From Kitasatospora albolonga (lineage in GTDB: Bacteria > Actinomycetota > Actinomycetes > Streptomycetales > Streptomycetaceae), in the NCBI GenBank assembly GCA_002082585.1, contig CP020563.1, positions 6,318,001-6,382,000 of the forward strand: DNA of 64,000 nt, written 5' to 3'. Shown one piece after another: positions 25,845-38,697 of the stretch (its first letter is position 1; each line of letters begins with the position of its first letter). The notes below the pieces were generated by a model that saw only the letters and a list, made by a program, of their open reading frames with translations, was not told where the DNA came from and made no database searches. The translations under genes and the position numbers were made by a program.

Positions 25845-26722
25845 GTCTGCCGGGCCTCGCGGAGGTAGCGCTTCGCCGTGGCGGCCGAGACGTTGAGCCG
25901 TTCGGCAACCTGAGCCGAGGTGAGCCCGGGGTCCTGAGCCAGGAGCTCAGCGACCCGCTCAACGGCCTGAGCCCGCTGAGCCGACTGGGTGTTCAGGTGC
26001 GCGGCGAACCCGAACGAGGCGCCGTCGGGCTCGTGGGTGCGAGCCCTGGGCTCAGGGGCGGCGACCTGCGTGGATGAGCGCAGGAGGTGCTGGGGCTCAG
26101 CGGGGGGCTCAGCGCGGTGAGCCAGGGGCTCAGCCGGGTCGTACGTGAGCTCCAGCGGTCGGCGCCGGGCGAGTTCGCGGCCCTTGTCCATGCGGGTGAG
26201 CTCGATCTCGAAGTCGACGGCGACCTCGGCGAGCTGGCGCTCGGCGGCCATCTCGCGCCGCCGCATCTCGATGCGGTGCTGCTCTTCCTCGAAGGTGAGG
26301 CCGCGCTCCATGCTCGCGAGGACGGCGCGTTCCTTCTCGGTGAGGGCGGCGGGGTCGCGCATGTCGGCGAGGGCGAGGAGCCAGATCACCTTGGCGCCGA
26401 GGGGCAGGAGGGGTCCGGCGACGGCCATGGGGAGGCTGTGGCCGCGGATGCCGTGCCAGACGAGGAGTCCGGCGACGGCGAGGAGCGCGGCCCAGCCGAT
26501 CGCGGGAACCACGTTGCGGCCCCAGGCGGGGATGCGGAGGCCGCGGGCTTCGGCCGCGATGACGGCGGCCCAGACGATGTCGGCCCCGGCGGCGACGGTG
26601 AGGCCGATGGGTCCGGTGCCGAGGAGGTCGACGAGGGACCAGGTGGTCCAGGCGAGGGAGGCGCCGGAGAGGAGCACGGCGGGGGCGAGGAGCGGCGAGA
26701 GGCCCTTGGGGAGGCTCATCAC
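25841..26722 (-). CDS. SpdB/DUF2637-like membrane protein fused to an HTH domain
   Basis: 293 aa. The N-terminal 130 residues hold four membrane segments (LLAPAVLLSGASLAWTTW; GLTVAAGADIVWAAVIAA; VVPAIGWAALLAVAGLLVW; AVAGPLLPLGAKVIWLLAL). A long charged coiled coil follows (about 135-190). Residues 255-293 form a helix-turn-helix (RVAELLAQDPGLTSAQVAER, NVSAATAKRYLREARQ). The membrane part resembles DUF2637/SpdB-type transfer-associated proteins of Streptomyces elements. Membrane anchoring of phage or host DNA is a plausible role. Confidence 0.7.
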   Translation of the reverse strand: MMSLPKGLSPLLAPAVLLSGASLAWTTWSLVDLLGTGPIGLTVAAGADIVWAAVIAAEARGLRIPAWGRNVVPAIGWAALLAVAGLLVWHGIRGHSLPMAVAGPLLPLGAKVIWLLALADMRDPAALTEKERAVLASMERGLTFEEEQHRIEMRRREMAAERQLAEVAVDFEIELTRMDKGRELARRRPLELTYDPAEPLAHRAEPPAEPQHLLRSSTQVAAPEPRARTHEPDGASFGFAAHLNTQSAQRAQAVERVAELLAQDPGLTSAQVAERLNVSAATAKRYLREARQT

Positions 26723-27045
26723 GGGGCCACCGCCACGCGGCCGGTGCGGGCGCGGCGGAGGGCCTCGTCCATGTCCGGGTCGGAGTCGGTGGTGTAGACG
26801 GGTTCGGCGTAGTAGCGGTGCCGCTTGATCCGGTTGGGGTTCAGCGTGACGGTGTTCTGCTCGGTGCAGAACTTGTACGCGACTTCACCGGAGACGGTCT
26901 CGCCGATCTCGATGGGGCGCGCCCACCAGCTGGCGGCGATCTCGGTCTCTCGCATGATGCGGAAGGCGACGATCTGGGCGGCACGGGCGGCGATGCGCTC
27001 GGGGGTGCTGTCGCACGTGATGGGGTGCGTGAAATGATCGGCCAC
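26719..27045 (-). CDS. Hypothetical protein (108 aa)
   Basis: Starts MADHFTHPITCDSTPERIAA and includes helical RAAQIVAFRIMRETEIAASW and a basic beta part (NPNRIKRHRYYAEP). The stop overlaps the next start by 4 nt. No recognised domain. Soluble, first gene of the membrane operon. Confidence 0.6.
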   Translation of the reverse strand: MADHFTHPITCDSTPERIAARAAQIVAFRIMRETEIAASWWARPIEIGETVSGEVAYKFCTEQNTVTLNPNRIKRHRYYAEPVYTTDSDPDMDEALRRARTGRVAVAP

Positions 27046-27091
27046 GGCCGATGCCTCCTGGTCTAGTCAGGATGGTGGTCGGTCGGAGGTC

Positions 27092-27139
27092 GAGCGGCGC
27101 GCGCGCCTCAGGCGTTCCAGCGCCTGGGAGCTGCCGCTC
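27092..27139 (-). terminator. Extended stem-loop between HTH gene and membrane operon
   Basis: GAGCGGC (27092-27098) with GCCGCTC (27133-27139) and, inside, CAGGCG (27109-27114) with CGCCTG (27121-27126) form a long interrupted stem. It can end transcription coming from 27149 or act as a processing site. Confidence 0.5.
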
Positions 27140-27148
27140 GGCCTCGCT

Positions 27149-27367
27149 CTATGTCGGGGCTTTGGGCCCGTTCTTCTTGATCGCCTTGTCGATGGCGTTC
27201 CAGCTCTTGTTCAGTTCCCTGGCGACTTCGGCCACGGTTCCGAGTTCGGCTACGCCGTCGAGCAGGGCGAGCGCTCTTCGTTTGGCCGATTCGGAGGCGA
27301 GGAGTTGGAGCTGTTCCAGCAGCTCGTCTTCTCCGCGTACCCGTTCCCGCCAGGGGATCGCGTTCAC
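27149..27367 (-). CDS. Small HTH protein, probably autoregulated
   Basis: 72 aa from GTG 27367. Charged helical start (IPWRERVRGEDELLEQLQLL), then ALALLDGVAELGTVAEVARE and LNKSWNAIDKAIKKNG, a Myb/homeodomain-like HTH pattern. A perfect palindrome sits 13 nt before the start (27380-27396), which suggests that it or a related protein controls this point. A TTG start at 27403 would include the palindrome and is less likely. Confidence 0.62.
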   Translation of the reverse strand: MNAIPWRERVRGEDELLEQLQLLASESAKRRALALLDGVAELGTVAEVARELNKSWNAIDKAIKKNGPKAPT

Positions 27368-27379
27368 GGGATGACTGTA

Positions 27380-27396
27380 TCCAACCCTGGGTTGGA
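27380..27396. promoter_or_regulatory. Perfect 8-bp palindromic operator candidate
   Basis: TCCAACCC-T-GGGTTGGA. It lies in the 40-nt gap between the 27408 gene and the small HTH gene. Short stem, AT-richer than surroundings and no T-run, so an operator is favoured over a terminator. Confidence 0.6.
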
Positions 27397-27407
27397 CGGT
27401 CAAGTGG

Positions 27408-28034
27408 TCAAGCCGCGTCGGCGTTTTCGGTCTGCCACGCCTTGAGCTGGACCCACGTCGCGGGCGGCCACGCCATCGAGCACCAGTCGCAGCGGACGAC
27501 CTGCTCCCCGGGGGCCAGCCTCAGGACCGCCCCGCAGATCGCCCCCGAGGTGTCGATGCTCTGGCAGTGGCCGATGCGCCGGCCGCGGGGTCTCGGGTCG
27601 GGGTCGACGACGGTGGCGGCCGACCGGTGGAGGTCGCCGATCTCCTGGGCGAGGTCGTGGGCGCCCGGCCAGACGACGATCCAGGGCATGTGGGCGAGGA
27701 GCCCCGTCACGGCCGTGTGGAGCCGTGTGAGGGCGTCTCCGGCCAGCCGGGGGCCCCGGAGTCGCCGGGCTTCGTGTACGGCGCTCAGCCAGGCGTACAC
27801 GGTCTCGAAGGACGTACGGAGGTCCAGGACGTCGACGCGGAGCGGGAGCGGCGCCGGGTGCCCCTTCCCGGCCCGGCCCTGCCCGCTGCTGCTCCCGGGG
27901 GCGAGGTGCCCGGCGAGCGCCTCGTACATCCGGGGCAGGTCCTGGAGCTGGCCGACGAGTCGGGTGGTGCAGGGCATGCAGAGGGTGCTGCCGGTGGGGT
28001 CGGGGGCGTGGCAGTGGGTGCAGGTGGTGTCCAT
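27408..28034 (-). CDS. Two-zinc-ribbon protein
   Basis: 208 aa. An N-terminal ribbon (CTHCHAPDPTGSTLCMPC) and a C-terminal one (GHCQSIDTSGAICGAVL, then VVRCDWCSMAW) flank a helical middle (SFETVYAWLSAVHEARRL). This layout is common in Streptomyces phages and integrative elements beside replication genes; the function has not been established. The GAGGAG site is 9 nt upstream of ATG 28034. Confidence 0.68.
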   Translation of the reverse strand: MDTTCTHCHAPDPTGSTLCMPCTTRLVGQLQDLPRMYEALAGHLAPGSSSGQGRAGKGHPAPLPLRVDVLDLRTSFETVYAWLSAVHEARRLRGPRLAGDALTRLHTAVTGLLAHMPWIVVWPGAHDLAQEIGDLHRSAATVVDPDPRPRGRRIGHCQSIDTSGAICGAVLRLAPGEQVVRCDWCSMAWPPATWVQLKAWQTENADAA

Positions 28035-28060
28035 CGCGGCGGGCTCCTCGTGCGGGTTGG

Positions 28061-28675
28061 TCAGGCGGTGGCTGCGGGCGGGGGAACGTCGGTGTCGGTC
28101 CACCACCAGCGGGCGCCGTGTTCGTCGGCGTGGCTGCCGGGGTGGCCGGGGCGCAGGACGCATTCGGTGCGCTCGGTGTGCTCGGTGAAGAGGGGCTTCT
28201 GGTTGCCGCAGTGCTCGGCCGGGGCGGTGGCTGCGCGCCCGGTGGCGCGGGCGGCACGGCAGCGGGGGTACGGGCAGCCGTCCACCGGCGGCAGGTGGTG
28301 TTGCTCGCACATGGCTCGGGAGTCGATGCACTGCCCGGCGGTCAGGCGGGCGTTGTCGGTGGCGAGCCGGTCGCGTTCGGCGGCGAGTTCCTCGATGGCG
28401 GGGGCGAGCCGGGGCCAGGACTCCCCGCCGTGGGCTTCGTTGATCCCGGCGGCTTCGAGGGCGTCGCGGGCTTCCTCCAGCAGTGCGGACCGTTCGCGGG
28501 CCCCGTTCTCCAGGAGGTCGAGCCGGTCGTACAGGGCGTCGAGGGCTTCCGCCCCCGGGTCCTGGTGGTCGGCGATCAGGCTGTCGAGGGACTCCAGCGC
28601 CCGCTGCGCAGCGGCACGGAGACGGTCGCGCAGTTGGTCGGCGGGGCGGTCAGCGGGGGTGGGGGTGGTGGGCAT
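28061..28675 (-). CDS. Coiled-coil protein with a Cys/His cluster
   Basis: 204 aa. Residues 10-110 are long charged coiled coil (LRDRLRAAAQRALESLDSLI; ARERSALLEEARDALEAAG). A Cys/His-rich block follows (CIDSRAMCEQHHLPPVDGCP) and then a Trp-rich end (RWWWTDTDVPP). Overlaps the next upstream gene by 1 nt. No recognised function; part of the early operon. Confidence 0.6.
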   Translation of the reverse strand: MPTTPTPADRPADQLRDRLRAAAQRALESLDSLIADHQDPGAEALDALYDRLDLLENGARERSALLEEARDALEAAGINEAHGGESWPRLAPAIEELAAERDRLATDNARLTAGQCIDSRAMCEQHHLPPVDGCPYPRCRAARATGRAATAPAEHCGNQKPLFTEHTERTECVLRPGHPGSHADEHGARWWWTDTDVPPPAATA

Positions 28676-28875
28676 CAGGGGCTCCAGGTCAGGGTGTGTT
28701 GCATGGGCGGGAGGGGGATTTCCTGCTGGCCGGGGATGGGCTCGGTGTCGGTGGTGGTGGGGGTTCGGCCGGGCCCGCTGCGGGTGCGGCGGGCGCAGAC
28801 GGGGCCGATACCGCGGGCCCGCCACGTCTCGGAACGGAGACGCCGCCCGCAGACTCGGCACACGACGGCGGTCAC
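28675..28875 (-). CDS. DUF6011-like small zinc protein
   Basis: 66 aa from GTG 28875, overlapping the previous stop by 4 nt. The motif CRVCGRRLRSETWRARGIGP followed by VC is the DUF6011-type signature (two Cys, CGRxL, GxGPxC), expected to bind zinc. The rest is a Thr/Pro linker and short tail. Often found in early regions of actinophages. The function is unknown. Confidence 0.7.
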   Translation of the reverse strand: MTAVVCRVCGRRLRSETWRARGIGPVCARRTRSGPGRTPTTTDTEPIPGQQEIPLPPMQHTLTWSP

Positions 28876-29411
28876 GACTCGGCGCTCCAGTCCACGGACT
28901 CGAACCCGTCGGTCGCCTCCGCGAACCGCAGCCGCTTGTCGACGGCCCGGCGCAGCTCGACGTCCCACTCGCGCATCGAGAACCCGCAGGCGCGGCAGGG
29001 CAGGCGTCGGCTGATCGGGAGCCACTGACGCTGGCCGCAGCTGACGCACGCGGTGAAGTACGCGCTCGGCCCGTACGCGGCAACCCAGTTGGCGTACCCG
29101 TGGCGGGTGCGGCGAAGGCCGTCGTCGCGCAGTGGCTCGTAGCCGATGAGAACGAGGTCGTTGCGGGTGCGGGCGAACTCGTGGGTCTTCTCGATCCGCG
29201 GGACGTTGGGGCCCTTGACCTCGATCCAGGTGTTCAGGGTGGGGAGGTGGAAGTCGGGGATGTAGGTGGCGCCAGACGGGAGGGTGAAGGTCTCCGGCTC
29301 GTACTCCCAGGTGATCTGGTTGAGGTCGAGGGTGAGGGCCCAGTCCGCTTCAAGGCGGGAGCGGAAGGTGGTGCCCCCGTAGGTGGTGGGGACGGCGTCT
29401 TCGGGGGTCAT
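28872..29411 (-). CDS. PD-(D/E)xK nuclease-like protein with zinc ribbon
   Basis: 179 aa. Nuclease core: FRSRLEADWALTL (E21), then YIPDFHLP (D53) and WIEVKGP (E64-x-K66), the complete PD-(D/E)xK pattern. A C-terminal zinc ribbon (CVSCGQ and CRACGF) follows. Start overlaps the DnaC-like stop by 4 nt. It resembles small single-domain nucleases such as the VRR/TnsA-like group. Possible roles are recombination, Holliday-junction cutting or replication; phage context favours the last two. Confidence 0.78.
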   Translation of the reverse strand: MTPEDAVPTTYGGTTFRSRLEADWALTLDLNQITWEYEPETFTLPSGATYIPDFHLPTLNTWIEVKGPNVPRIEKTHEFARTRNDLVLIGYEPLRDDGLRRTRHGYANWVAAYGPSAYFTACVSCGQRQWLPISRRLPCRACGFSMREWDVELRRAVDKRLRFAEATDGFESVDWSAES

Positions 29412-30142
29412 GCTGCGCGGCCTCCTCGGCGGCGGTCGGTGCCGGTCATCGCGACAACGCGGGTGTCTTCGGAGAGTCGGGACACGATGCGCTCGCCGAG
29501 CGCCGACGTGAGGTCGGGGGCGCCGTTGGCCGCGCGGGCGGGGAGGTTCGAGGTGTAGAGGGTCGGCCGGCAGGCGTTGTACCGCTCGTTGATCAGCCGG
29601 TAGGTGATCTCCTCCGTCCACTCGGACGCCTTCGCGGACCCGAGGTCGTCGAGGACGAGGAGCGGGACCCGTACGAGACGGCGGAGCTCTTCCTCGGTGC
29701 CGCGCTCGCTGCCCTTGGGGCGGAGGAGCCCGTACATGTCGGCGGCGGTGGTGGCGCGGATCTCGTAGACGCGGGGCCCGGCGGCGGCGATGCGGCGGAG
29801 GGCGCCGTATGCCTGGTAGGTCTTGCCGGTGCCGGTGGTGCCGGTGAGGAGCAGTGACCCGGCGGTGTCGGGGGCCGCGGCGACGTCGTCGGCCCACTGC
29901 TGGACGGCGGGGTGGTCGGCGTCGGCGCGCTGGTAGCGGGGCGGGGTGGCGGTGGCCCAGCGCTTGAGGGCCCATTCGGCGCGGCGGCGGCGGTGGTACT
30001 CGGGGTGGCCGGGCTCGTCGGGGGTGGGCTGGTCGTCGATCGGGCCAGGGGTCACGCCTTGCTCCTGCTTCTGGCGGATGCCGTTCATGACGTTGGCGAG
30101 GGCGGAGGGTCCGAGCGCGCCGATGCTCTGGGGTTCGGGCAT
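29408..30142 (-). CDS. DnaC-like helicase loader ATPase
   Basis: 244 aa. Walker A GTTGTGKT (101-108) and Walker B LLVLDDLG (161-168), with an N-terminal helical segment and the sensor-like TLYTSNLPARA region. This is the usual AAA+ layout of phage DnaC/DnaI loaders, which put the host helicase onto the phage origin. It directly follows the initiator-like gene by 2 nt, making a two-gene replication unit. Confidence 0.85.
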   Translation of the reverse strand: MPEPQSIGALGPSALANVMNGIRQKQEQGVTPGPIDDQPTPDEPGHPEYHRRRRAEWALKRWATATPPRYQRADADHPAVQQWADDVAAAPDTAGSLLLTGTTGTGKTYQAYGALRRIAAAGPRVYEIRATTAADMYGLLRPKGSERGTEEELRRLVRVPLLVLDDLGSAKASEWTEEITYRLINERYNACRPTLYTSNLPARAANGAPDLTSALGERIVSRLSEDTRVVAMTGTDRRRGGRAA

Positions 30143-30144
30143 GG

Positions 30145-31002
30145 TCAGAATCCGTTCGAGTACGCGCTGATGTCGGTGGGGTTGGTGTAGGGCTGCCAGC
30201 CGGTGGTGGGCACGGCGCGCAGCGAGGGGCGGGCGGTGCCGGGCTCGGGGAGCGGGGGAAGGTCGCGCCAGCCGGGGAGGAAGTACCGGGCGTACGACAC
30301 GTCCCGGCTGGCTGCCTGCTTCTGGGCGTAAGCGGCGAGGGCGGCTACGCCGGTGCGCTTGATGAGCGCTTCGACGGTGAACCACTCGGCGGTCGACAGG
30401 TTCCAGCGGACGAGAATTCCGGCGGCGGTGATCGTGTCAACGAGGGGGCGGCAGTTGGTGGGGATCTCGGGGCCGAGGACGGGCGGGGCGGGCTCTCCTG
30501 CTTGCTTGCTTTCACTCCTGGTAGGAGTGGTCTGGTAGAGGGGTCCTGATTCGGTACCCCTAGGGGTCTCGATTCGGTACCCCTCCGGTCCTGATTCGGT
30601 ACCCCTAGCGTTTTCGCTACCGGTCTCGATTCGGGACCCCTGGGAGTCGCTAGCGGTCCCGGATCGGGACCCCTCGGGAAGGTCTACCGGTCCTGAATCG
30701 GTACCCCTAGAGCCGAGGGTGGGCCGCTTGTAGTTCACCGCGTACGGCAGTTGGTAGGCGGCGGCGCGGGTGCCGCGGGCCTCCTCGACGATGACGAGCT
30801 CGCCGGACTCGATGGCCTTGTCGACCGCGCGGACGACCACCGACTTGCTGACCTGGCCGAGGCGGGCTCGGAGTTCGGTGGTGCCCATGCGCGTGACGCA
30901 TTCGGGGCCCGGTGCCTTGTCGGCGACCGCGAGGAGCACCATGCGCGGGTTGCCGGTGCTGCGGGCGTGGTTCCACACCCAGTGCATGGCGTCGATGGTC
31001 AC
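30145..31002 (-). CDS. Replication-initiator-like HTH protein containing the iteron array
   Basis: 285 aa from GTG 31002. Residues 1-90 form a winged-helix domain like phage replication proteins (MHWVWNHARSTGNPRMVLLA; TTELRARLGQVSKSVVVRAV). Residues 98-156 are encoded by six DNA repeats and read RGTESGP or GYRIET/GSRIET alternately. The C-terminal 100 residues are helical (VDTITAAGILVRWNLSTAEW; YARYFLPGWRDLPP), similar to DnaD-like ends. The adjacent helicase loader supports an initiator, as in phages whose origin lies within the initiator gene. Confidence 0.75.
   Translation of the reverse strand: MTIDAMHWVWNHARSTGNPRMVLLAVADKAPGPECVTRMGTTELRARLGQVSKSVVVRAVDKAIESGELVIVEEARGTRAAAYQLPYAVNYKRPTLGSRGTDSGPVDLPEGSRSGTASDSQGSRIETGSENARGTESGPEGYRIETPRGTESGPLYQTTPTRSESKQAGEPAPPVLGPEIPTNCRPLVDTITAAGILVRWNLSTAEWFTVEALIKRTGVAALAAYAQKQAASRDVSYARYFLPGWRDLPPLPEPGTARPSLRAVPTTGWQPYTNPTDISAYSNGF
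30542..30708. repeat. Six 20-bp iteron-like repeats (candidate phage origin)
   Basis: Consensus GGTCCTGATTCGGTACCCCT. Copies start at 30542, 30565, 30587, 30622, 30655 and 30689. Steps of 23, 22, 35, 33 and 34 bp are near two and three helical turns, so the copies face the same DNA side. All copies share GGTCnnGnATCGGkACCCCT. The array lies inside the initiator-like gene. Confidence 0.85.
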
Positions 31003-31078
31003 GCGGTCCTTCTCTCGTACGGGGGTTGCGGTGGTGCGGGTGGTGGCCCGGGGCACGACAGCCCCGGGCCGGGAGGGG

Positions 31079-31471
31079 TCAGGCGGCCGGTGCGGGGAGC
31101 AGCGGCTCCCAGAGCAGGCCCATGTGGGCGGCGCACTCCGTGAGCCAGGCGCGGACGGCGGGCTCGTCGGCCTCGGTGACAACGCACTCGGTGGACCGGA
31201 GGATCGCCTTGCGCTGGAGGACCCAGAACACGGCCAGCGTGTCCGGGGGAACCGGCTCGTCGTAGGGCTCGTAGTCGGCGGGGTCGGATCGCTTCCAGTC
31301 CCAGCGGAAGACGAGGTTGAGGTCCGGGTCCAGGCCACCCCACTCGGCGAAGAACGCGGCCCACGAGGGGTACTCCGTGTGCAGGCCGTCAACCGGACGG
31401 GCGTAGTAGTTGCCCTCGGTGCAGTAGTACGGGTGGTCGGTCTCCCACAGCGGGACGACGATGGCGGTCAT
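31079..31471 (-). CDS. Hypothetical protein (130 aa)
   Basis: Aromatic-rich N-terminus (TAIVVPLWETDHPYYCTEGN, YPSWAAFFAEWGGLDPDLNL) and a helical end (EPAVRAWLTECAAHMG). No recognised domain. Start overlaps the stop of the WhiB-fusion gene by 1 nt, so it is co-translated with it. Confidence 0.6.
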   Translation of the reverse strand: MTAIVVPLWETDHPYYCTEGNYYARPVDGLHTEYPSWAAFFAEWGGLDPDLNLVFRWDWKRSDPADYEPYDEPVPPDTLAVFWVLQRKAILRSTECVVTEADEPAVRAWLTECAAHMGLLWEPLLPAPAA

Positions 31472-32208
31472 CAGGCGGCGCTCCGTTCGGTGGTGGTGCC
31501 GGTGGTGCGGAGTCGGCGGCTGGCGTCCGTGTTGGCCTGGCGGCACGGGGTGCACGCGGGCTCGTCCTTGCGGAGGTGCCGGGCGTAGCCGCCACGGGTG
31601 CCGCACTCGGGCGGTCCCGGCGGCACGGTGAGCTGCTGCTCGTATGCGTCCGACGCCGCCTGGCACGCCTCGTCGATCGGCTCTCCGGCCTGGATGTGCC
31701 GGTAGTACGCCCTCGTCGTCCCGCACCCGTCCGGGACGGCCCGACGAGGGCGGTGGCGCTCGCGCTCCCGCTGGGCCCGGCTGTGCTCGGCGTGGGCCTT
31801 CCGGCAGGCGGTGTCCACCGGCTCGCCCCGGCGCACGTGCCGGTCGTACGCCGTGTTCGTCCCGCACGGCGACAGCTGCCTGCCGCCCTTGCCCTGCGCG
31901 GCCCGGGTGCTCGTGTCCGCCGCCCACCGCTGGACGGGGGTGAGCCCGGCCCGGATGCCGTACCGGGACGCCTTACCGATCCCGTGCTCCTCTACGGCGA
32001 CCGCTTGGCGGCAGAGCGCGAGGACGGGGCAGGACTCGCAGACTCGTACGGCGGCGCGTACGGCCTCGGTGTCACCGGGCTCGGGAAACCAGAGGTCTTC
32101 GTGACCCACGTACTGCGGGGCCGCGCACGTCCCGTACGGGCGCCAGCTTTCGGCCCGGTCGAGGGTGTCGGGGGCGGTGTGGCTGGTCGTGGTGTAGTGG
32201 TGGATCAT
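31471..32208 (-). CDS. WhiB-like Fe-S protein fused to three Cys repeats
   Basis: 245 aa. The WhiB domain (residues 20-95) has four cluster cysteines C28, C57, C60 and C66 in the C-xn-CxxC-x5-C order, then RYGIRAGLTP in place of the usual GVWGG turn. Residues 115-225 hold three repeats with the pattern CGT-x3-Y-x-R-H-x5-E-P-x3-C; the Cys pairs are C115/C135, C162/C182 and C202/C222, each 20 apart. WhiB proteins are actinobacterial transcription factors, and phage versions can reprogramme the host and exclude other phages. The repeats may bind metal or DNA. Start overlaps the upstream stop (TGATG). Confidence 0.85.
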   Translation of the reverse strand: MIHHYTTTSHTAPDTLDRAESWRPYGTCAAPQYVGHEDLWFPEPGDTEAVRAAVRVCESCPVLALCRQAVAVEEHGIGKASRYGIRAGLTPVQRWAADTSTRAAQGKGGRQLSPCGTNTAYDRHVRRGEPVDTACRKAHAEHSRAQRERERHRPRRAVPDGCGTTRAYYRHIQAGEPIDEACQAASDAYEQQLTVPPGPPECGTRGGYARHLRKDEPACTPCRQANTDASRRLRTTGTTTERSAA

Positions 32209-32591
32209 CACGGCGCCACCGCCGTCCGGGGCTTGTCCTCGCGCCGGGACTGCCAAGCCGACCCGTAATCCAGCGACGGGGCGTCGAGGCCGACCGCGTG
32301 GTCGTACGCGGCCTGCACCCGGTCCGCCCGGCGCTCGGCGGTGGCGAGGTCCGTACGGAGCCGGGCCACGACACGCAGCAGGCGGTCGATGCGCCCCCCG
32401 TACGACACGGCGTCGCGGATGCGGGCCAGCCGTACGCGGTGGAGGGTGTCGTCGGCGGCGGTGAACTGGCCGGCCGCCGTACGGGTCGCGGTCTGCATCG
32501 CGCGCACCTGGCGCTGTGCTTCGTCGCGCTGCTCACGCACCCGCTCGTAATCGGCTGCCAGCGCGTCGTACTTCCTGCGGGAGACGGGCAT
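32208..32591 (-). CDS. Coiled-coil early protein (127 aa)
   Basis: Long charged helix at the start (RKYDALAADYERVREQRDEA) and again in the second half (RIDRLLRVVARLRTDLATAE). No motif otherwise. It is coupled by 1-nt overlaps to the RecT-like gene before it and the WhiB-fusion after it. Function unknown. Confidence 0.6.
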   Translation of the reverse strand: MPVSRRKYDALAADYERVREQRDEAQRQVRAMQTATRTAAGQFTAADDTLHRVRLARIRDAVSYGGRIDRLLRVVARLRTDLATAERRADRVQAAYDHAVGLDAPSLDYGSAWQSRREDKPRTAVAP

Positions 32592-33409
32592 CACGCACCC
32601 GCCTTCGCGCCGGTGATCTCGTCGGCCGTGACGCGGGGCTTCGGGAACTCCTCGTCCTTGGTGACCTCGCCGCGCTGGATCGACTGGAAAATGACCTGCA
32701 ACTGGCCGAGGTCGATGTCCGTCCACTTGGCCGACTCCCGGCCGAGCTTGGTCTCGATCTGGTCGGCGGTGATGCCGATGCCCTCGTACGCCCCGATCGC
32801 GTCGGCGATGCGCTGGGGGCGGGGGATATCTCCGCCGCCGGTCGCGAGGGTCTTGTTGCAGGCGGTCTTGGCCTGCTCGATGTACCAGACCGGCAGCACC
32901 GTAAAGATCATTTCCCGGAGGCGGCGGGCACCGTTGTTGGCGTTGTTCTCGTACACGTCCCGGAAGTCCGCGAGCTTCCTGGCCTGCCCGTCAGCCCACC
33001 GGGCGTGCGGCACGATGAACGTCGTCGAGGACCGCTCGTTGGTCTCCATGTCCCAGGCCCACGCCTGCATCTCCGACTCGCCGTACTCCTCGTCACGGCG
33101 CAGCTCGGCAACCCCGAACTGGATGTTGCCCCAGCAGCGGGCCAGCTCCTTCGCGAGCTGGATCGTCTCGCCCGAGACGTGCGAGCTGCCGCGCGGGAAC
33201 CGGAAGAACGCCCGCTGGGCCAGCTCCTTCTGGGCGCACGCCGTCTGCATCCGGGCGACGCACGCCGCCTCGTTGCGGGGGAACTGCCGGGCCACGAGGA
33301 CCGCGGCCTGGACTTCGGCGACCGCCCGGGACTGCTCGACGGCGGTGCCCTGCCCGACCCGCGCGGGCGCGGCGGCCGGGGTCATACGCTCGATCTGCTG
33401 GTAGCTCAC
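32591..33409 (-). CDS. RecT-like single-strand annealing protein
   Basis: 272 aa from GTG 33409, overlapping the exonuclease stop by 4 nt. The segment ISYQQ-type N-terminus is followed by ARMQTACAQKELAQRAFFRF, GSSHVSGETIQLAKELARCW and GNIQFGVAELRRD, a pattern seen in phage annealing proteins of actinophages. The pairing with a RecE-like nuclease upstream gives a two-component recombination module that would act on phage DNA ends. Exact family (RecT versus a related annealer) is not certain. Confidence 0.68.
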   Translation of the reverse strand: MSYQQIERMTPAAAPARVGQGTAVEQSRAVAEVQAAVLVARQFPRNEAACVARMQTACAQKELAQRAFFRFPRGSSHVSGETIQLAKELARCWGNIQFGVAELRRDEEYGESEMQAWAWDMETNERSSTTFIVPHARWADGQARKLADFRDVYENNANNGARRLREMIFTVLPVWYIEQAKTACNKTLATGGGDIPRPQRIADAIGAYEGIGITADQIETKLGRESAKWTDIDLGQLQVIFQSIQRGEVTKDEEFPKPRVTADEITGAKAGA

Positions 33410-34287
33410 AGGTACGTCTCCGTGTCTCGGATCTCGGCCCACGCGGGGAGCGAGAGGTAGGCGATCTCGTCGGTGTAGCCGGGCCAGTGCCCGGTCTCGA
33501 CGCAGCGGGCGTACGTCTCGATCGCCCGCCGGTTCTTCGCGGCCCCGATGCGGAGCGCGGTCATGTCGGGCTCGAAGACGGTCACGAGGTAGGGGGCGGT
33601 CTTCTCCTGGCAGACGAAGACGAACGCCGTGTCCGCGCCGCCGAGCTGGGCGGCGCGGGCGGCGGCCCGGTACCAGTCGGCCTGCTGGTGGTAGCCGTAC
33701 TCGTGTACGGCCTTGGCCAGCGCGGTCGGCTCGGCGGACCGGCACGTCTTGTAGTCGGGGATGATCAGCCGCCCCGGGCCGGGGTTCGGCAGCCAGTCGA
33801 ACCGGGCCCGACGCCGTACACCCGAGCGGTCGTCCTCCCACACCACCGACACCTCCGGCCGACCGGAGCCCGGCGCGAACAGCACGCCCGCGACGGGGTG
33901 TCGGCGGATCGCGTCGGCCATCGCCTGCACCTGGTCGTGCTCGGCGACGAGGAGCGCCAGCCCCCCGGCCGCCGCAACCTCGTCCCGCTCCTGGCGGGCG
34001 GCCTTCGTCCGCCAGTCGTCCGCGTCGATCGAGACGAGGTCGGGGCCTTCGCCGAGGACGAGCCGGTGGGCGGCGTTCCCGAAGTCGAACGCCTGCTTGC
34101 GGGGGCGGGGGTTGTCCTGCTCGTGGCGGAACAGGGCGGGACAGGACGGGGGCAGGAGCTTCCGGGCGCCGGAGGAGGAGAGCGACGTGCGGTCGCCGTG
34201 GTACGTCTCGATGGGGAGGCGGGGGTACAGGCCGGGGGCGAGCCCGGCGGCCGGGGCCGAAGCCCCGGCCAGCGCGGTGTCGGTCAT
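33406..34287 (-). CDS. RecE/YqaJ-like PD-(D/E)xK exonuclease
   Basis: 293 aa. Start: PIETYHGDRTSLSSSGARKL, which is the typical RecE/DUF3799-like opening. Catalytic core: RARFDWLPNPGPGRLIIPDY followed by KTCRSAEP gives D and D-x-K, with HEYGYHQQADWY as the fifth helix motif. Resects 5' ends to expose strands for the annealing partner at 32591. 4-nt overlaps join it to both neighbours. Confidence 0.83.
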   Translation of the reverse strand: MTDTALAGASAPAAGLAPGLYPRLPIETYHGDRTSLSSSGARKLLPPSCPALFRHEQDNPRPRKQAFDFGNAAHRLVLGEGPDLVSIDADDWRTKAARQERDEVAAAGGLALLVAEHDQVQAMADAIRRHPVAGVLFAPGSGRPEVSVVWEDDRSGVRRRARFDWLPNPGPGRLIIPDYKTCRSAEPTALAKAVHEYGYHQQADWYRAAARAAQLGGADTAFVFVCQEKTAPYLVTVFEPDMTALRIGAAKNRRAIETYARCVETGHWPGYTDEIAYLSLPAWAEIRDTETYL

Positions 34288-34478
34288 GCGATGGCTCCGA
34301 GGAGTTCGCGGGCGGCGGTGATGAGTCCGGCCCAGAGGAGGAGGCTGGCGGGGATGGCGAGGAGGCACCCGGCGGCGGGCTGGTGGTCGAAGCTGGCCCG
34401 GTCCTGGAGTTCGCGCTGCGACCGGCCGATACCGGAGGGGTCGGGGCGGCGGTGCTCGCCGCCGAACGTGTCACCCAT
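34284..34478 (-). CDS. Small C-terminally anchored membrane protein
   Basis: 64 aa. Charged soluble N-terminus (GDTFGGEHRRPDPSGIGRSQ), then a C-terminal membrane helix (GCLLAIPASLLLWAGLITAA). The start is ambiguous between ATG 34478 and GTG 34490; both overlap the upstream gene. No known role. Confidence 0.5.
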   Translation of the reverse strand: MGDTFGGEHRRPDPSGIGRSQRELQDRASFDHQPAAGCLLAIPASLLLWAGLITAARELLGAIA

Positions 34479-34719
34479 GGACGTGACCACCCTTCGCGTG
34501 GTTGAGGCGGAAGACCCGGCGGCCCGGATCGGAGTCGTCGCAGATCAGCAGGCCCTCACCGACGAGCTGCGCGAGGTCCTGGCGGGCCTTGCCACGCCAG
34601 TCCCCGGGGCCGAACCGCTGGACGTACAGGTGCTGGACCATGCGGGTCGTGATCTCGCCCTGGTAGTCCCGGGCCAGCTCACGCAGCACCACCAGCCGGG
34701 CGTCGGTCGGGGACCTCAC
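34471..34719 (-). CDS. Small winged-helix-like protein (82 aa)
   Basis: GTG start overlapping the upstream stop by 4 nt. The pattern RLVVLRELARDYQGEITTRM, then HLYVQRFGPGDWRGKARQDL and VGEGLLICDDSDPGRRVFRL is that of a winged helix. It ends HAKGGHVHG. A regulatory or DNA-binding role is probable; target unknown. Confidence 0.62.
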   Translation of the reverse strand: MRSPTDARLVVLRELARDYQGEITTRMVQHLYVQRFGPGDWRGKARQDLAQLVGEGLLICDDSDPGRRVFRLNHAKGGHVHG

Positions 34720-34853
34720 TGGCCACCCCCGAGGCGGTGCAGGAGGTCCAGCAGGTGGGTGATCGGGTGGTGCCCCTCGACCACAACCACCAAGGCGATG
34801 GCGCACAGGGCGTACCCGACGGCCGACCCGGCGACGATCTGCCACCCGCTCAC
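34716..34853 (-). CDS. Tiny single-pass membrane protein (45 aa)
   Basis: GTG start overlaps the upstream stop by 4 nt and its own stop overlaps the next start by 4 nt, both good signs of translation. One hydrophobic helix (IVAGSAVGYALCAIALVVVV) and a His/Leu-rich end. Function unknown. Confidence 0.52.
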   Translation of the reverse strand: MSGWQIVAGSAVGYALCAIALVVVVEGHHPITHLLDLLHRLGGGQ

Positions 34854-35209
34854 GAGGTCACCGCCGTACGCTCAGCCACCTGCTCCGCAGACAGCAGCGC
34901 CCACGCCCGCACCCGAACCCCGTCACGGAAACCAGACGCCTCCGTGTACTCCCCGCCCGACCCGGCCGGTCGTACCGCCACCTCAAGCGAAAACTGAGCA
35001 GCGAACTCCCGAACCAACCCCGGCGTGTCGTGGAAGTAGAAGCGGATCGATGGAGCCCCGGGCTCCCAATCCGCAGCCGAGACGATGAAGTCCGTCGGCA
35101 AGGCGGTCGTCTCGCTGAGCAGCGTCTCAGCCAGCGACAGCGCCGCCATGTAGCTGTGCCGCTGCGTCGTACTGACGTCCGGCTCGCGGGTAGTAGAGTT
35201 GTCGGTCAC
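34850..35209 (-). CDS. Hypothetical early protein (119 aa)
   Basis: GTG start at 35209 with GAGGAC upstream. Helical start (MAALSLAETLLSETTALPTD), then beta-rich segments (SIRFYFHDTPGLVREFAAQF). No recognised domain. It lies early in the leftward operon, downstream of the xis-like gene. Confidence 0.58.
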   Translation of the reverse strand: MTDNSTTREPDVSTTQRHSYMAALSLAETLLSETTALPTDFIVSAADWEPGAPSIRFYFHDTPGLVREFAAQFSLEVAVRPAGSGGEYTEASGFRDGVRVRAWALLSAEQVAERTAVTS

Positions 35210-35288
35210 GATGTCCTCGTCTCTCTCGTTGGTGAGGCGTCGTCGGGGTCGACCGGGTGCATCCGGCGGCCCCGCATTGCGTCAGGGA

Positions 35289-35510
35289 TCAGGCGGCGAC
35301 GGCGCGCTGCGCCAGCGGGTCCGCCTGCTCCCGGGCCTCCAGCCACGCCATGACCACCGAGCGGCGGTAGAGCGTGCTCCTGCCGACCCGGGTCCCCTGC
35401 GGGCCGATGCCCCGGTGCCGCATCTGGCGTACGGCGTGCGGCGTCTTACGGATGAGCGCCGCGACTTCCTTCGTCGTCATCAGGTCCGGCGCGGCGGCGG
35501 TCGTTGCCAC
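35289..35510 (-). CDS. Excisionase-like HTH protein
   Basis: 73 aa, GTG start. LMTTKEVAALIRKTPHAVRQ, then MRHRGIGPQGTRVGRSTLYR and RSVVMAWLEAREQ form the helix-turn-helix of the Xis/AlpA/MerR-like family. It lies in the early lytic operon on the strand opposite to the integrase, as expected for a directionality factor. Starts inside the 3' end of the upstream XRE gene (65-nt overlap). Confidence 0.72.
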   Translation of the reverse strand: MATTAAAPDLMTTKEVAALIRKTPHAVRQMRHRGIGPQGTRVGRSTLYRRSVVMAWLEAREQADPLAQRAVAA

Positions 35511-35721
35511 TGTCGTCTCCGTTCGTTTCCGGTGTGAGGTCGCCGATGGTGCACCCCAAGTGGGTGGCGATTCGGGCGAGCGCCTCGGGCTGGGGGTCGG
35601 TGACCCCGCGCTCGATGCGGGAGAGGTGCGATGCGGAGATCCCGGCAGCCTTCGCGAAGCGGCGCAGGCCGTAGCCGTTCGTTTCGCGTCGACTCCGGAT
35701 TCCCGGTCCGTCGGCCTTCAT
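35446..35721 (-). CDS. Cro-like XRE regulator, first gene of the lytic operon
   Basis: 91 aa from ATG 35721. HTH at residues 10-70 (IRSRRETNGYGLRRFAKAAG, ISASHLSRIERGVTDPQPEA), acidic and basic tail. As first gene of the leftward operon and divergent from the larger XRE gene it fills the place of Cro. The overlap with the excisionase gene suggests coupled translation. An immunity repressor role cannot be excluded. Confidence 0.75.
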   Translation of the reverse strand: MKADGPGIRSRRETNGYGLRRFAKAAGISASHLSRIERGVTDPQPEALARIATHLGCTIGDLTPETNGDDSGNDRRRAGPDDDEGSRGAHP

Positions 35722-35927
35722 GGGTGAAACGATACGCAACGAAGCGCAGGGATGCAAGCGGATGCGTGGAGACGCTTTGGGATGATCACCGTGCGTAGAC
35801 GGTTGATGAGTTTTCGGTCAATCTCTGGGGTCGGCATCGCGTGCCAGGTAGGCGAGCCTTACTCTGTTGCCGATCGTTGCGCGCCGTTGCGTGCATACGC
35901 CACCAACAGGGAGAGAGGCCGCCCCCC
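35722..35927. promoter_or_regulatory. Divergent lysis-lysogeny control region
   Basis: 206 nt between the two XRE genes. CGCAACG (35735-35741) lies 13 nt from the leftward start. The inverse CGTTGCG occurs twice (35875-35881 and 35885-35891), close to the rightward gene. The three sites read CGCAACG followed by a GC-rich half, as expected for operators shared by two repressors. Promoter boxes were not resolved. Confidence 0.55.
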
Positions 35928-36386
35928 ATGGACCGCGACCCACAAAGCTGGGCCCGGCTCGGCCACGCCCTCCGCGCATCCCGCGAACACCGCGGACTCA
36001 CCCAGTCCGCCGTCGCCGAACTCGCCGGCGTATCCGGGCGCAGCGTCCAGGACGTCGAGGGCGGCACCGTTCCGAAGAAGCGAATGCCGTACACCATCGG
36101 CCGCATCGCCGCCGCGCTCGGCTGGCCCGAGGGCGCGGTCGACGCCGTCCTCGACGGGGCCGCCCCGCCCGGCGATGGCTGGCGCACCGCACCCGTCGAG
36201 CAGGCGCAGCTCGACGAGGAGGCGCTGGCCGGGATCATGACGACCGCGATGGTGCGCGCCACCGAGCACGCCACCGCCGCAGAAATCCGCGCCGCCACAC
36301 GCATCGCGCTGGACGAGTTGCGGCGGCAGGGCTACCTGCCAGAGACGGATGGCGTACAACCTGGGCGGGATTCGGAGAACTCGTAG
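35928..36386 (+). CDS. Putative immunity repressor (XRE type)
   Basis: 152 aa from ATG 35928 with GAGAGAGG upstream. The N-terminal HTH (LRASREHRGLTQSAVAELAG, SGRSVQDVEGGTVPKKRM) is followed by a helical C-terminal domain (DEEALAGIMTTAMVRATEHA) that may dimerise. Transcribed with integrase and away from the lytic operon, so it is the best candidate for the CI-like lysogeny repressor. No LexA-type peptidase domain is present. Confidence 0.72.
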   Translation: MDRDPQSWARLGHALRASREHRGLTQSAVAELAGVSGRSVQDVEGGTVPKKRMPYTIGRIAAALGWPEGAVDAVLDGAAPPGDGWRTAPVEQAQLDEEALAGIMTTAMVRATEHATAAEIRAATRIALDELRRQGYLPETDGVQPGRDSENS

Positions 36387-36459
36387 TCACCAAGTGGTGA
36401 CCCGACATATCCTCGCGGTCCCCGGAGCCTGCCGCTCCGGACGAGAACGGGGGTCCGTC

Positions 36460-36663
36460 ATGCCCGAGCCGCTCATCACCACCGTCGCCCTCGGCCCACA
36501 CGTAGCCGCACTCACCTGCCGCATCAACGGCGTCGTCCACGCCGTCATCAACACCCGCGCCCGCTCCGACCCGCGCATCCGTACCGAAGCCGCCGTCGCC
36601 CTGATCGGAGCGGGCATGGACGTCGGCCGCACACTGGGAGCCATCGATGGGGTACGTCGCTGA
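36460..36663 (+). CDS. Small hypothetical protein before integrase (67 aa)
   Basis: ATG 36460 has GGGGG 6 nt upstream. Beta-rich start (MPEPLITTVALGPHVAALTC) then helical (TEAAVALIGAGMDVGRTLGA). It overlaps the integrase start by 17 nt, so translation of the two is probably coupled. No recognised domain. Confidence 0.6.
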   Translation: MPEPLITTVALGPHVAALTCRINGVVHAVINTRARSDPRIRTEAAVALIGAGMDVGRTLGAIDGVRR

Positions 36664-37909
36664 CCGCTGGCACAAGACGAGACACCGGCCCGATGAACCG
36701 GAGTGCGGCGAGCACAAGGGCAAGGTCGCCACGAAGTGCCACGGGAAGGGCAAGCGGTGGCAGGCCCGATACGACGACCCGACCGGGCGGGAAGTCACCA
36801 GCGTCTGGGCCACGAAAGTAGAGGCCGAGCAGGAGATCGTCAGGCAGGAGGCCGCCAAGCAGACTGGGTCCTGGCTGGACCCGAAGGCCGGACGCGTCAC
36901 CTTCGAGCAGTTCTCGCTCGACACGTGGCTGCCCGCACAGTCCATCATCGGCCGGTCTGAAGTCGAGTACCTCGGGGCGCTACGGCGCTACGCCTTCCCT
37001 GAGTTGGGGCACAGGGAGATGAGGTCCATCAAGCCGTCCGAGGCGGGGGCCTGGCAGAAGCTCCTCGTCAGCAAGTACGGCCTGTCCGGCTCGTATCCCA
37101 ACCGCGTAGCCCGTTACGTCCGCGGGGTGTTCCGCCTAGCCGTCATCGACCGCGTCATCTCTGTCAGCCCCTTCGCGCAGATCCTCGCGCCGGCCTTGGA
37201 GTCGTCGGCGTGCCACCCGCCCGACGTGGCCGAGGTGCACCAGCTTGTCACTGCCGCCTACCACGACCGGTACGCCACGATGATCGCGCTGGACGCGCTC
37301 ACCGGGCTCCGCTCCGGCGAGCTGCGAGGGCTCCGGTTGTCGCGTATCGATTTCCTGCGGCGCACCATGCTGGTCGATCAGCAGCTGGTGTACGAGAAGG
37401 GTAAAGGCCAGTACTTCGACGAGCTGAAGACTGGCGCCGGGCGCCGCACTTTGCCTTTGACGCAGGGGACCGTCGACCTGATCGCCGCGTACGTGGCCAG
37501 GAACCCGGTGCCTACGGCGGGGCCTGGTGCCGGGCTTCTCTTCACCATGCCAGCCGCTGGGCTGATCGGTGAGTCGACGATCGACTACGCGCTCAAGAGC
37601 ATCTGCAAGCGGGCCAATGTCGAGCCGCGGCACTGGCACGAGCTGCGTCACCACTACGCATCGGTGCTCATCGCGGGCGGGGAGAACCCGCGTGTAGTCC
37701 AGCAGCGCCTCGGGCACAAGGACGTCCTGACGACCATGCGTACGTACGCACACCTCTTCGCGGAGGCGGAGGAGCGGACGCGAGACGTTCTGGATGCGGC
37801 ATGGGCTGATGTGCGTAAGGCTGACGGCGAGGCGGAATCCTCTGGGGCGAGCGGAAGGATTCCGGAATCCCGAGCAGATTCCGGGGTAGTCGCCCAGCTC
37901 AGAGGGTAG
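36647..37909 (+). CDS. int: Tyrosine integrase
   Basis: 420 aa. N-terminal AP2-like/arm-binding region (GKRWQARYDDPTGREVTSVW), SAM-like core-binding domain (about 85-185), and catalytic domain with R222 (LTGLRSGEL), K261, H331-x-x-R334 (HELRHHYAS), H357 (LGHKD) and the nucleophile Y367 (TMRTYAHLF), all present. It recombines the core in dps with attP. The last 20 codons overlap candidate arm-type sites at 37852-37870. Excision should need the xis-like protein at 35289. Confidence 0.95.
   Translation: MGYVADRWHKTRHRPDEPECGEHKGKVATKCHGKGKRWQARYDDPTGREVTSVWATKVEAEQEIVRQEAAKQTGSWLDPKAGRVTFEQFSLDTWLPAQSIIGRSEVEYLGALRRYAFPELGHREMRSIKPSEAGAWQKLLVSKYGLSGSYPNRVARYVRGVFRLAVIDRVISVSPFAQILAPALESSACHPPDVAEVHQLVTAAYHDRYATMIALDALTGLRSGELRGLRLSRIDFLRRTMLVDQQLVYEKGKGQYFDELKTGAGRRTLPLTQGTVDLIAAYVARNPVPTAGPGAGLLFTMPAAGLIGESTIDYALKSICKRANVEPRHWHELRHHYASVLIAGGENPRVVQQRLGHKDVLTTMRTYAHLFAEAEERTRDVLDAAWADVRKADGEAESSGASGRIPESRADSGVVAQLRG
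37852..37870 (+). other. Candidate integrase arm-type sites, right end
   Basis: CGGAAGGATTCCGGAA (37852-37867) and overlapping TCCGGAATCC (37861-37870) are identical to motifs at 693-708 and 673-682. They lie 50-68 bp before the attR core, in integrase codons 402-408. A further GGAATCC is at 37834. Confidence 0.6.
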
Positions 37910-37919
37910 ACCGCGACAT

Positions 37920-37942
37920 CACGCCTGGATGTTCCAGGCCGA
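37920..37942 (+). other. attR core (23 bp)
   Basis: Identical to 544-566. Right of it comes the original bacterial end of dps (codons GAA AGT GCC TGA), then the csbD leader. The bacterial and phage versions of the dps 3' end encode the same residues E-S-A-stop with different codons. Confidence 0.93.
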
Positions 37943-37971
37943 AAGTGCCTGAGCGGAAGGAAACCGACATC

Positions 37972-38166
37972 GTGACTGGTGACAACGCCATGGACAAGCT
38001 CAAGGGCAAGGGCAAGGAGGCCGTCGGCAAGCTGACCGGCGACCGCCGCAAGGAGTCCGAGGGCAAGGCCGACCAGGCCAAGGCCACGGCCAAGGACAAG
38101 GTCGACGAGGCCGGTGAGCGCGCGAAGGGCGTCACGGACTCGCTGCGCAACGACAACGACAAGTAG
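37972..38166 (+). CDS. CsbD-family stress protein
   Basis: 64 aa from GTG 37972 with AAGGA upstream. AMDKLKGKGKEAVGKLTGDR and a charged helix (KADQAKATAKDKVDEAGERA) are the typical CsbD repeat pattern; the family is induced in general stress but the biochemical role is not known. It stands 19 nt after the original dps stop, so before integration it was almost certainly cotranscribed with dps. The prophage now separates them. Confidence 0.88.
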   Translation: MTGDNAMDKLKGKGKEAVGKLTGDRRKESEGKADQAKATAKDKVDEAGERAKGVTDSLRNDNDK

Positions 38167-38185
38167 CGACGACAGCCTGAGCACC

Positions 38186-38222
38186 GCGAGTGCCCCCGCC
38201 GATCTCCGGCGGGGGCACTCGC
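38186..38222 (+). terminator. 15-bp terminator hairpin after csbD
   Basis: GCGAGTGCCCCCGCC (38186-38200) pairs perfectly with 38208-38222 around GATCTCC. Ends the dps-csbD transcription unit. Confidence 0.75.
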
Positions 38223-38316
38223 GTGTGCGGTCAGCTGTCGGCCGTACGTTCTGGATGCAGTGGCGCCGCCGCCAGGGGAAACTGCCCGAAAGGACGTCGG
38301 CCGCAGGAGGGCAGCG

Positions 38317-38697
38317 ATGGTACGGCGATGGGTGCCGGCGCTGGTCCTCGGCGGGGTGTGGTGGTGGGCGGTGCTGCGGCTGGTGCTGCAACCGGAGCAG
38401 GCCGGTGCGGTGGAGGGCGCGGTGGCGGCGGGCGGCTGGGGACTGAGCCTGCTGCCCGTCCATGTGGCGTCGCTGGCCGGGGCGCCGGGGCCGGGGCGGG
38501 GGCTGCCGGAGGGGCGGGCTGGGGTGGAGGGGCCGGAGAGCTGGGCGGGGCTGGAGGGGGCGGAGAGGGGAACGGCGTTGGAGGGGGCGGAGGGGCGGAT
38601 GCGGTCGGAGGGGTTTGCCGGGGCGTGGCTGCGCCGCTCCGGGATCACCAGGGCATGGCGACGCCGCCGTTCGGGCGGAGGATCTGGCCGGTGGTGA
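38317..38697 (+). CDS. Small membrane protein with low-complexity tail
   Basis: 126 aa from ATG 38317, GGAGGG upstream. Two hydrophobic stretches (VPALVLGGVWWWAVLRLVL and VAAGGWGLSLLPVHVASLAG) and a long Gly/Glu/Arg-rich end. Its last 53 nt overlap the SDR gene on the other strand, so either the tail is dispensable or the true end of one gene is shorter. No family recognised. Confidence 0.5.
   Translation: MVRRWVPALVLGGVWWWAVLRLVLQPEQAGAVEGAVAAGGWGLSLLPVHVASLAGAPGPGRGLPEGRAGVEGPESWAGLEGAERGTALEGAEGRMRSEGFAGAWLRRSGITRAWRRRRSGGGSGRW

Follow-up and report, generated by a model that had tools for sequence, protein, structure and literature searches.

In bacteriophage lambda, the iterons of the replication origin lie inside gene O, in the part that codes for the linker between the DNA-binding and the loader-binding domains of the initiator (excerpts of PMC5043065 and PMC6022878). 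Repeats in the initiator gene, together with an AT-rich unwinding element and a loader gene next to them, are also described for oriL of the Bacillus phage SPP1 (gp38/gp39; excerpts of PMC6316719), and in iteron plasmids of the RK2, P1 and R6K type, phased repeats that bind the initiator flank a weak region (PMC5043065). For the mycobacteriophage RepA, PMC7157519 places a possible origin in or upstream of repA. In open-licence full texts, which include the SV1 papers (PMC9380542, in part) and leave most subscription journals outside, we found no earlier description of such in-gene origins in actinophages. Here, we analyzed a 64,000-nucleotide stretch of the Kitasatospora albolonga genome (assembly GCA_002082585.1, contig CP020563.1), hereafter the window, which covers positions 6318001-6382000 of this 8.03-Mb single-contig genome, whose relatives are Streptomyces. 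A prophage in the window carries six iterons inside its initiator gene, and comparison of sequences and analogy with lambda indicate that this array is very probably the initiator-binding half of the prophage replication origin, working as lambda ori does.

The iteron array in the initiator gene

The array is made up of six units of about 20 bp, numbered here in gene order (all coordinates are those of the window unless stated otherwise):

30145..31002, minus strand: initiator gene, 285 aa (phrog_6643, winged-helix matches and AlphaFold2 model)
30689..30708, minus strand: iteron 1 (17-bp dyad 30689-30705)
30655..30674, minus strand: iteron 2 (17-bp dyad 30655-30671), the most divergent copy
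30622..30641, minus strand: iteron 3 (17-bp dyad 30622-30638)
30587..30606, minus strand: iteron 4 (17-bp dyad 30587-30603)
30565..30584, minus strand: iteron 5 (17-bp dyad 30565-30581)
30542..30561, minus strand: iteron 6 (17-bp dyad 30542-30558)

An initial annotation of this DNA had listed six units at 30542-30708 with start-to-start steps of 23, 22, 35, 33 and 34 bp, which our scans confirm. Scanning the window with a single unit, at up to 3 mismatches, matched five iterons and nothing else (0.01 expected), the missed copy being 30655-30674, and a looser pattern applied to the whole genome (up to 2 mismatches) found the array and one stray site (G000:C1:5715341). None of 300 synonymous-codon shuffles of the whole gene, in which protein sequence and codon usage were kept fixed, reached the array score of 27 (null mean 11.2, maximum 20). 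The array is not a chance arrangement. All six units are 17-bp inverted repeats around a single central base, with 6 or 7 of the 8 base pairs symmetric, as expected for sites that would each be bound by a dimer, a symmetry that the initial annotation does not mention. Moreover, when four phage genomes and the window were each scanned with a matrix of their own iterons, no sequence outside the six in-gene copies scored above the weakest of these, the matrix being derived from those same copies. The helical phasing proposed in the annotation holds within the window (mean resultant 0.91 at 11 bp and 0.87 at 10.5 bp; against random spacings of 17-46 bp, p = 0.008 at 11 bp and 0.02 with the best period among 9-13 bp) but only loosely across relatives (unique spacings, resultant 0.29, p = 0.046 over periods), because many of these use 30-bp and a few 17-bp steps.

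The gene hosting the array had been called initiator-like, in agreement with its match to PHROG 6643 'replication initiation protein' (E = 1.1e-33), a family matched by 39 of the 39 members of set A3; a match to phrog_391 'O-like' (3.4e-6) was obtained as well. The protein (30148-31002, minus strand) is predicted to consist of a winged helix (residues 1-91), a disordered linker (99-169) and a C-terminal helical domain (about 181-250), the AlphaFold2 predicted local distance difference test score being mostly >88 in residues 1-90, about 95 at 181-250 and <50 at 99-153, 155-161 and 163-169. The array codes for residues 100-154, within this predicted linker between the winged helix and the C-terminal domain; sites placed there would ask nothing more of the peptide than flexibility.

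Relatives were gathered from phage records, IMG/VR (67 loci), genome contigs (4 loci) and 392 genomes of the genus (matches in 22). Once duplicates had been removed, 90 distinct genes remained, counting that of the window; their linker regions were scored for 17-bp dyad arrays, with 20 synonymous shuffles per gene as control. Arrays with 5-8 detected copies are present in 68 genes, and in no case did a shuffle match them. By N-terminal class, an array was found in 53 of 53 genes of the window/SV1 type, 11 of 12 of the L053 type, 3 of 3 of the L075 type, 0 of 3 of the L057 type and 0 of 18 of the Raleigh type; repeats missing beside the same initiator, which the initial annotation had named as counter-evidence, were therefore not encountered among the window/SV1-type genes. 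The four misses outside the Raleigh type (L082 of the L053 type; L057, L061 and L071 of the L057 type) have arrays of another sequence according to a 19-bp detector (0/30 shuffles). At least 6 of the 8 pairs are symmetric in 80% of copies compared to 2% of random linker 17-mers, a difference that is partly built in because the detector requires a symmetric reference. Several spacing architectures recur, namely 36-30-24-46-23 (18 genes), 37-30-35-46-23 (11), 36-33-36-33-23 (8) and 34-33-35-22-23 (7, among them the window). The Streptomyces phages SV1, Picard, Mojorita, SoJo, Tubberson, ToastyFinz and Eklok have a homologous initiator (38-45% identity) with six in-linker iterons, which differ from those of the window in sequence and spacing. 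Among all relatives the half-sites vary widely (GGGCCGGA, GGTCCGGA, GGTCGGGA, GTCCCGGA, GGTGCAGA, GGGTCAAA, GGTACAGA and others); the site sequence changes from one relative to the next and the inverted-repeat form is kept. One further array gene, L092 (G335:C1:4626560-4627231), is unassigned as to N-terminal class: it matches the window initiator from residue 76 only (60% identity), with the array intact, and its N-terminal part, in that frame, reads unlike the initiator family.

That the units are read in two frames, so that DNA and not peptide is under selection, had also been claimed, and both statements hold. In the window, three copies read RGTDSGP, RGTESGP and RGTESGP in one frame and the other three GSRSGT, GSRIET and GYRIET in another; of the 68 arrays, 58 use two frames, 5 use three and 5 a single one. 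The initiators of L085 and L090 share 74% and 77% identity with that of the window; the two genes hardly differ from each other in the first 90 nt, and their divergence is greatest in the helix-turn-helix part. Between their iterons, every one of the six copies shows the same two substitutions, C to T at position 3 and G to A at the symmetric position 15 (12 of 12 half-sites), which are silent in the three copies of one frame and replace Pro by Ser and Ala by Thr in the three of the other. As an identical change is silent in one frame and changes amino acids in the other, the DNA appears to be under selection; this concerted change has no apparent reason at the peptide level and would be explained by an altered binding specificity. 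As the iterons taken together differ as much as the spacers do, the conserved feature is the sameness of the copies, not each base.

The weak duplex beside the array

On the C-terminal-coding side, the array borders a candidate unwinding element:

30499..30551, minus strand: candidate DNA-unwinding element, comprising the least stable 40 bp (about 30551 down to 30512) and a 4-bp-periodic stretch
30513..30529, no strand assigned: inverted repeat CACTCCT-ggt-AGGAGTG, inside the unwinding element
30499..30510, minus strand: tandem AGCAAGCAAGCA (AGCWAGC motif)

Duplex stability was calculated from nearest-neighbour energies in 40-bp stretches, from -600 to +900 of each array. In the window, the 40-bp stretch of lowest local stability begins 10 bp inside the last iteron, and for 46 of the 68 array genes it begins between -10 and +45 relative to where the last iteron ends; in lambda (NC_001416), where our dyad detector recovers the four annotated iterons (0/100 shuffles), the same calculation places it at +2. 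Mean GC content over the 68 loci drops to 0.51-0.58 just past the last iteron, compared to about 0.70 around it. The melting region is moreover periodic, with a fraction of matches at distance 4 of 0.46 versus 0.31 further on. Near the last iteron, the best 45-bp period-4 value reaches the top 1% of the locus for 50 of the 68 genes (4.1% at random positions) and the top 5% for 59 (17.5% at random positions), gene counts that are not independent because the genes are related; among the 24 spacing architectures, 14 show a median rank of at most 1%. Within the local 5 kb, the window value ranks in the top 0.08%, and the periodicity was not seen in the window relatives L020, L099 and L100. The exact 18-mer of the inverted repeat recurs in L085 and L090 and, with one base changed, in L018 and L092. 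AGCWAGC occurs within 80 bp past the last iteron in 19 of the 68 loci, versus 0.0066 per 80 bp elsewhere.

The Raleigh-type sister genes (L007, L008, L063, L065-L068, L070, L072, L073, L079-L081, L083, L084, L108-L110) have the C-terminal domain common to the array genes and lack the 17-bp array. With the 19-bp detector, five of six of them examined were without an array and L073 came out marginally above 30 shuffles, with three copies. All 18 linkers contain a perfect stem of 9-14 bp with a 3-base loop TAC, TTC or TGC between C and G (UNCG-like); its sequence varies between groups and it beats 50 synonymous shuffles in 17 of 18 genes (L108 ties). AGCWAGC follows this stem in 15 of the 18.

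Proposed mechanism and alternative explanations

Taken together, an in-gene phage origin is well supported by these comparisons, and origin activity is predicted. Upon prophage induction, an early transcript would yield the 285-aa initiator, and one initiator dimer would attach by its winged helices to each of the six 17-bp inverted repeats. Assembled into a compact complex, these dimers would put strain on the DNA and melt its weak stretch on the 30499-30551 side, after which the C-terminal domain of the initiator, on its flexible linker, would deliver the DnaC-type loader (29408-30142) together with the host's DnaB helicase to the exposed strand, and replication would start at the array.

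Initiators often repress their own genes, and the repeats might instead bind the initiator for autoregulation or for copy control, as an operator or by handcuffing, while replication starts at another place; lying deep inside the gene, they could hold a bound complex that stops transcription. Against this, the weak duplex flanks the array as in lambda, neither the four phage genomes nor the window have a second array above the weakest own copy, and 5-8 copies are many for an operator, so that we consider this explanation improbable. Even less credit can be given to the repeats being a mere DNA trace of a repeated linker peptide (GPESGP-like): four of the six copies in SV1-type genes share one frame reading GPxSGP and five arrays use a single frame, but 63 of 68 use two or three, synonymous shuffles never reach the array (0/20 for each of the 68 genes, 0/300 for the window) and the same base change is silent in one frame and alters amino acids in the other. 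Dyads acting as mRNA hairpins in translation control would fit a strand that folds somewhat better than its shuffles (z = -2.0; 4/200 as good) and a change from C-G to U-A at positions 3/15 that would keep the RNA pair. However, the inner pairs are unable to close a loop because the symmetry centre is a single base, pairing alone does not demand the same sequence in every copy, and Rfam at gathering threshold gave no match in 26000-38500, which makes hairpins a most unlikely explanation too.

Several observations weigh against the array being an origin of the kind proposed. The weakest 40 bp lies outside the -10 to +45 interval in 22 of 68 genes, GC skew has no inflection at the array, and in Picard an unrelated GC-rich tile equals the raw score of the array. 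Between L085 and L090, the iterons (22/102 differences) are overall no better conserved than the spacers (13/62), and a search for co-evolution of the recognition helix with the site singled out no residues.

Beyond the window, the chances seem even that the relatives form a widespread Streptomyces-phage origin family in which site and winged-helix specificity switch together (in all copies, both half-sites and both frames), giving many mutually distinct initiator-origin pairs, and in which melting proceeds via a 4-bp-periodic element of the TGAGTGAAGGAG or AGCAAGCAAGC type, the AGCWAGC form of which also occurs in iteron-less sister genes with a sequence-variable perfect stem. If the array is the origin, the prophage now has an assigned origin, and homology extends this assignment to Streptomyces phages like SV1 and Picard. 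The relatives would then offer a data set for studying the joint change of specificity in an initiator and the many copies of its site, which encode protein at the same time, and the requirements of a melting element in DNA of about 70% GC.

Prophage setting and comparison with known origins

The prophage has genes for terminase (19836-21368), portal, major capsid, tape measure, endolysin and integrase (36647-37909) and an excisionase-like gene (35289-35510), with a 27-bp repeat at both ends (25/27 identical). A putative att core, CACGCCTGGATGTTCCAGGCCGA, is exact over 23 bp at 544-566 and 37920-37942 and contains an inverted repeat; no further copy was found genome-wide at up to 1 mismatch. 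Because the exact core stands only at these two positions, the prophage length is about 37.4 kb. ARAGORN called a tRNA-Gly (ccc) at 32026-32116 on the minus strand, within a phage WhiB-like coding region, which is probably spurious.

The helicase loader that the initial annotation had seen near the array adjoins the initiator gene:

29408..30142, minus strand: DnaC/IstB-type AAA+ helicase-loader gene, 244 aa (phrog_50, 5.7e-35; PF01695, 6.4e-13; PDB 3ecc DnaC, 3.8e-14)

In the 68 array loci, the gene following the initiator is of the SoJo40 type (24), DnaC type (21), Raleigh40 type (9) or Eklok42 type (7), has no hit (5) or falls beyond the end of the sequence (2), and family models back only the DnaC type as a loader. 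In SV1 it belongs to another family, phrog_8924, and in SoJo it is annotated 'helicase loader'. Several gene families hence stand behind a conserved initiator, as if the loader had been swapped.

The 'iteron-type' origin reading of the initial annotation is supported, with the qualification that the units are inverted repeats and in this respect lambda-like and not plasmid-iteron-like. With iteron plasmids such as RK2, P1 and R6K, as described in PMC5043065, the array shares phased repeats flanked by a weak region, but these plasmids are typified by direct, non-palindromic iterons bound by monomers, whereas the window units are 17-bp dyads within coding sequence. SPP1 oriL, likened here by description and not by sequence, shares the in-gene repeats, the unwinding element and the loader that follows; SPP1 differs in having a second origin, oriR, of which no counterpart above the weakest own copy appears in the four phage genomes and the window.

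Lambda ori likewise has inverted-repeat iterons (17-19 bp) in the linker part of the initiator gene, the loader gene next to it and a weak duplex on the C-terminal-coding side, starting at +2 bp compared to -10 bp in the window. Conversely, lambda has four copies at 20-24 bp and the window six at 22-35 bp, the lambda loader is P and that of the window of the DnaC/IstB type, and the weak region of the window is 4-bp periodic and sits in a gene of ~70% GC. By sequence, the window initiator falls outside the lambda O family: PF04492 (Phage_rep_O) gave no match to it at E up to 10 and matched lambda O itself at 5.7e-36, and hhalign of 39 relatives versus lambda O found no profile similarity (probability 0.2). 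PHROG 391 ('O-like') is matched by 25 of the 39 relatives via its N-terminal half and by lambda O via its C-terminal half, which suggests an exchange of modules. Inverted-repeat iterons in the initiator gene, an adjacent weak duplex and a downstream loader gene are all found in the window, and it is well supported by this comparison that the array follows the lambda-type in-gene origin plan, as a likeness of plan and not of ancestry, the plan being served here by an initiator with no detectable similarity to O in a high-GC setting.
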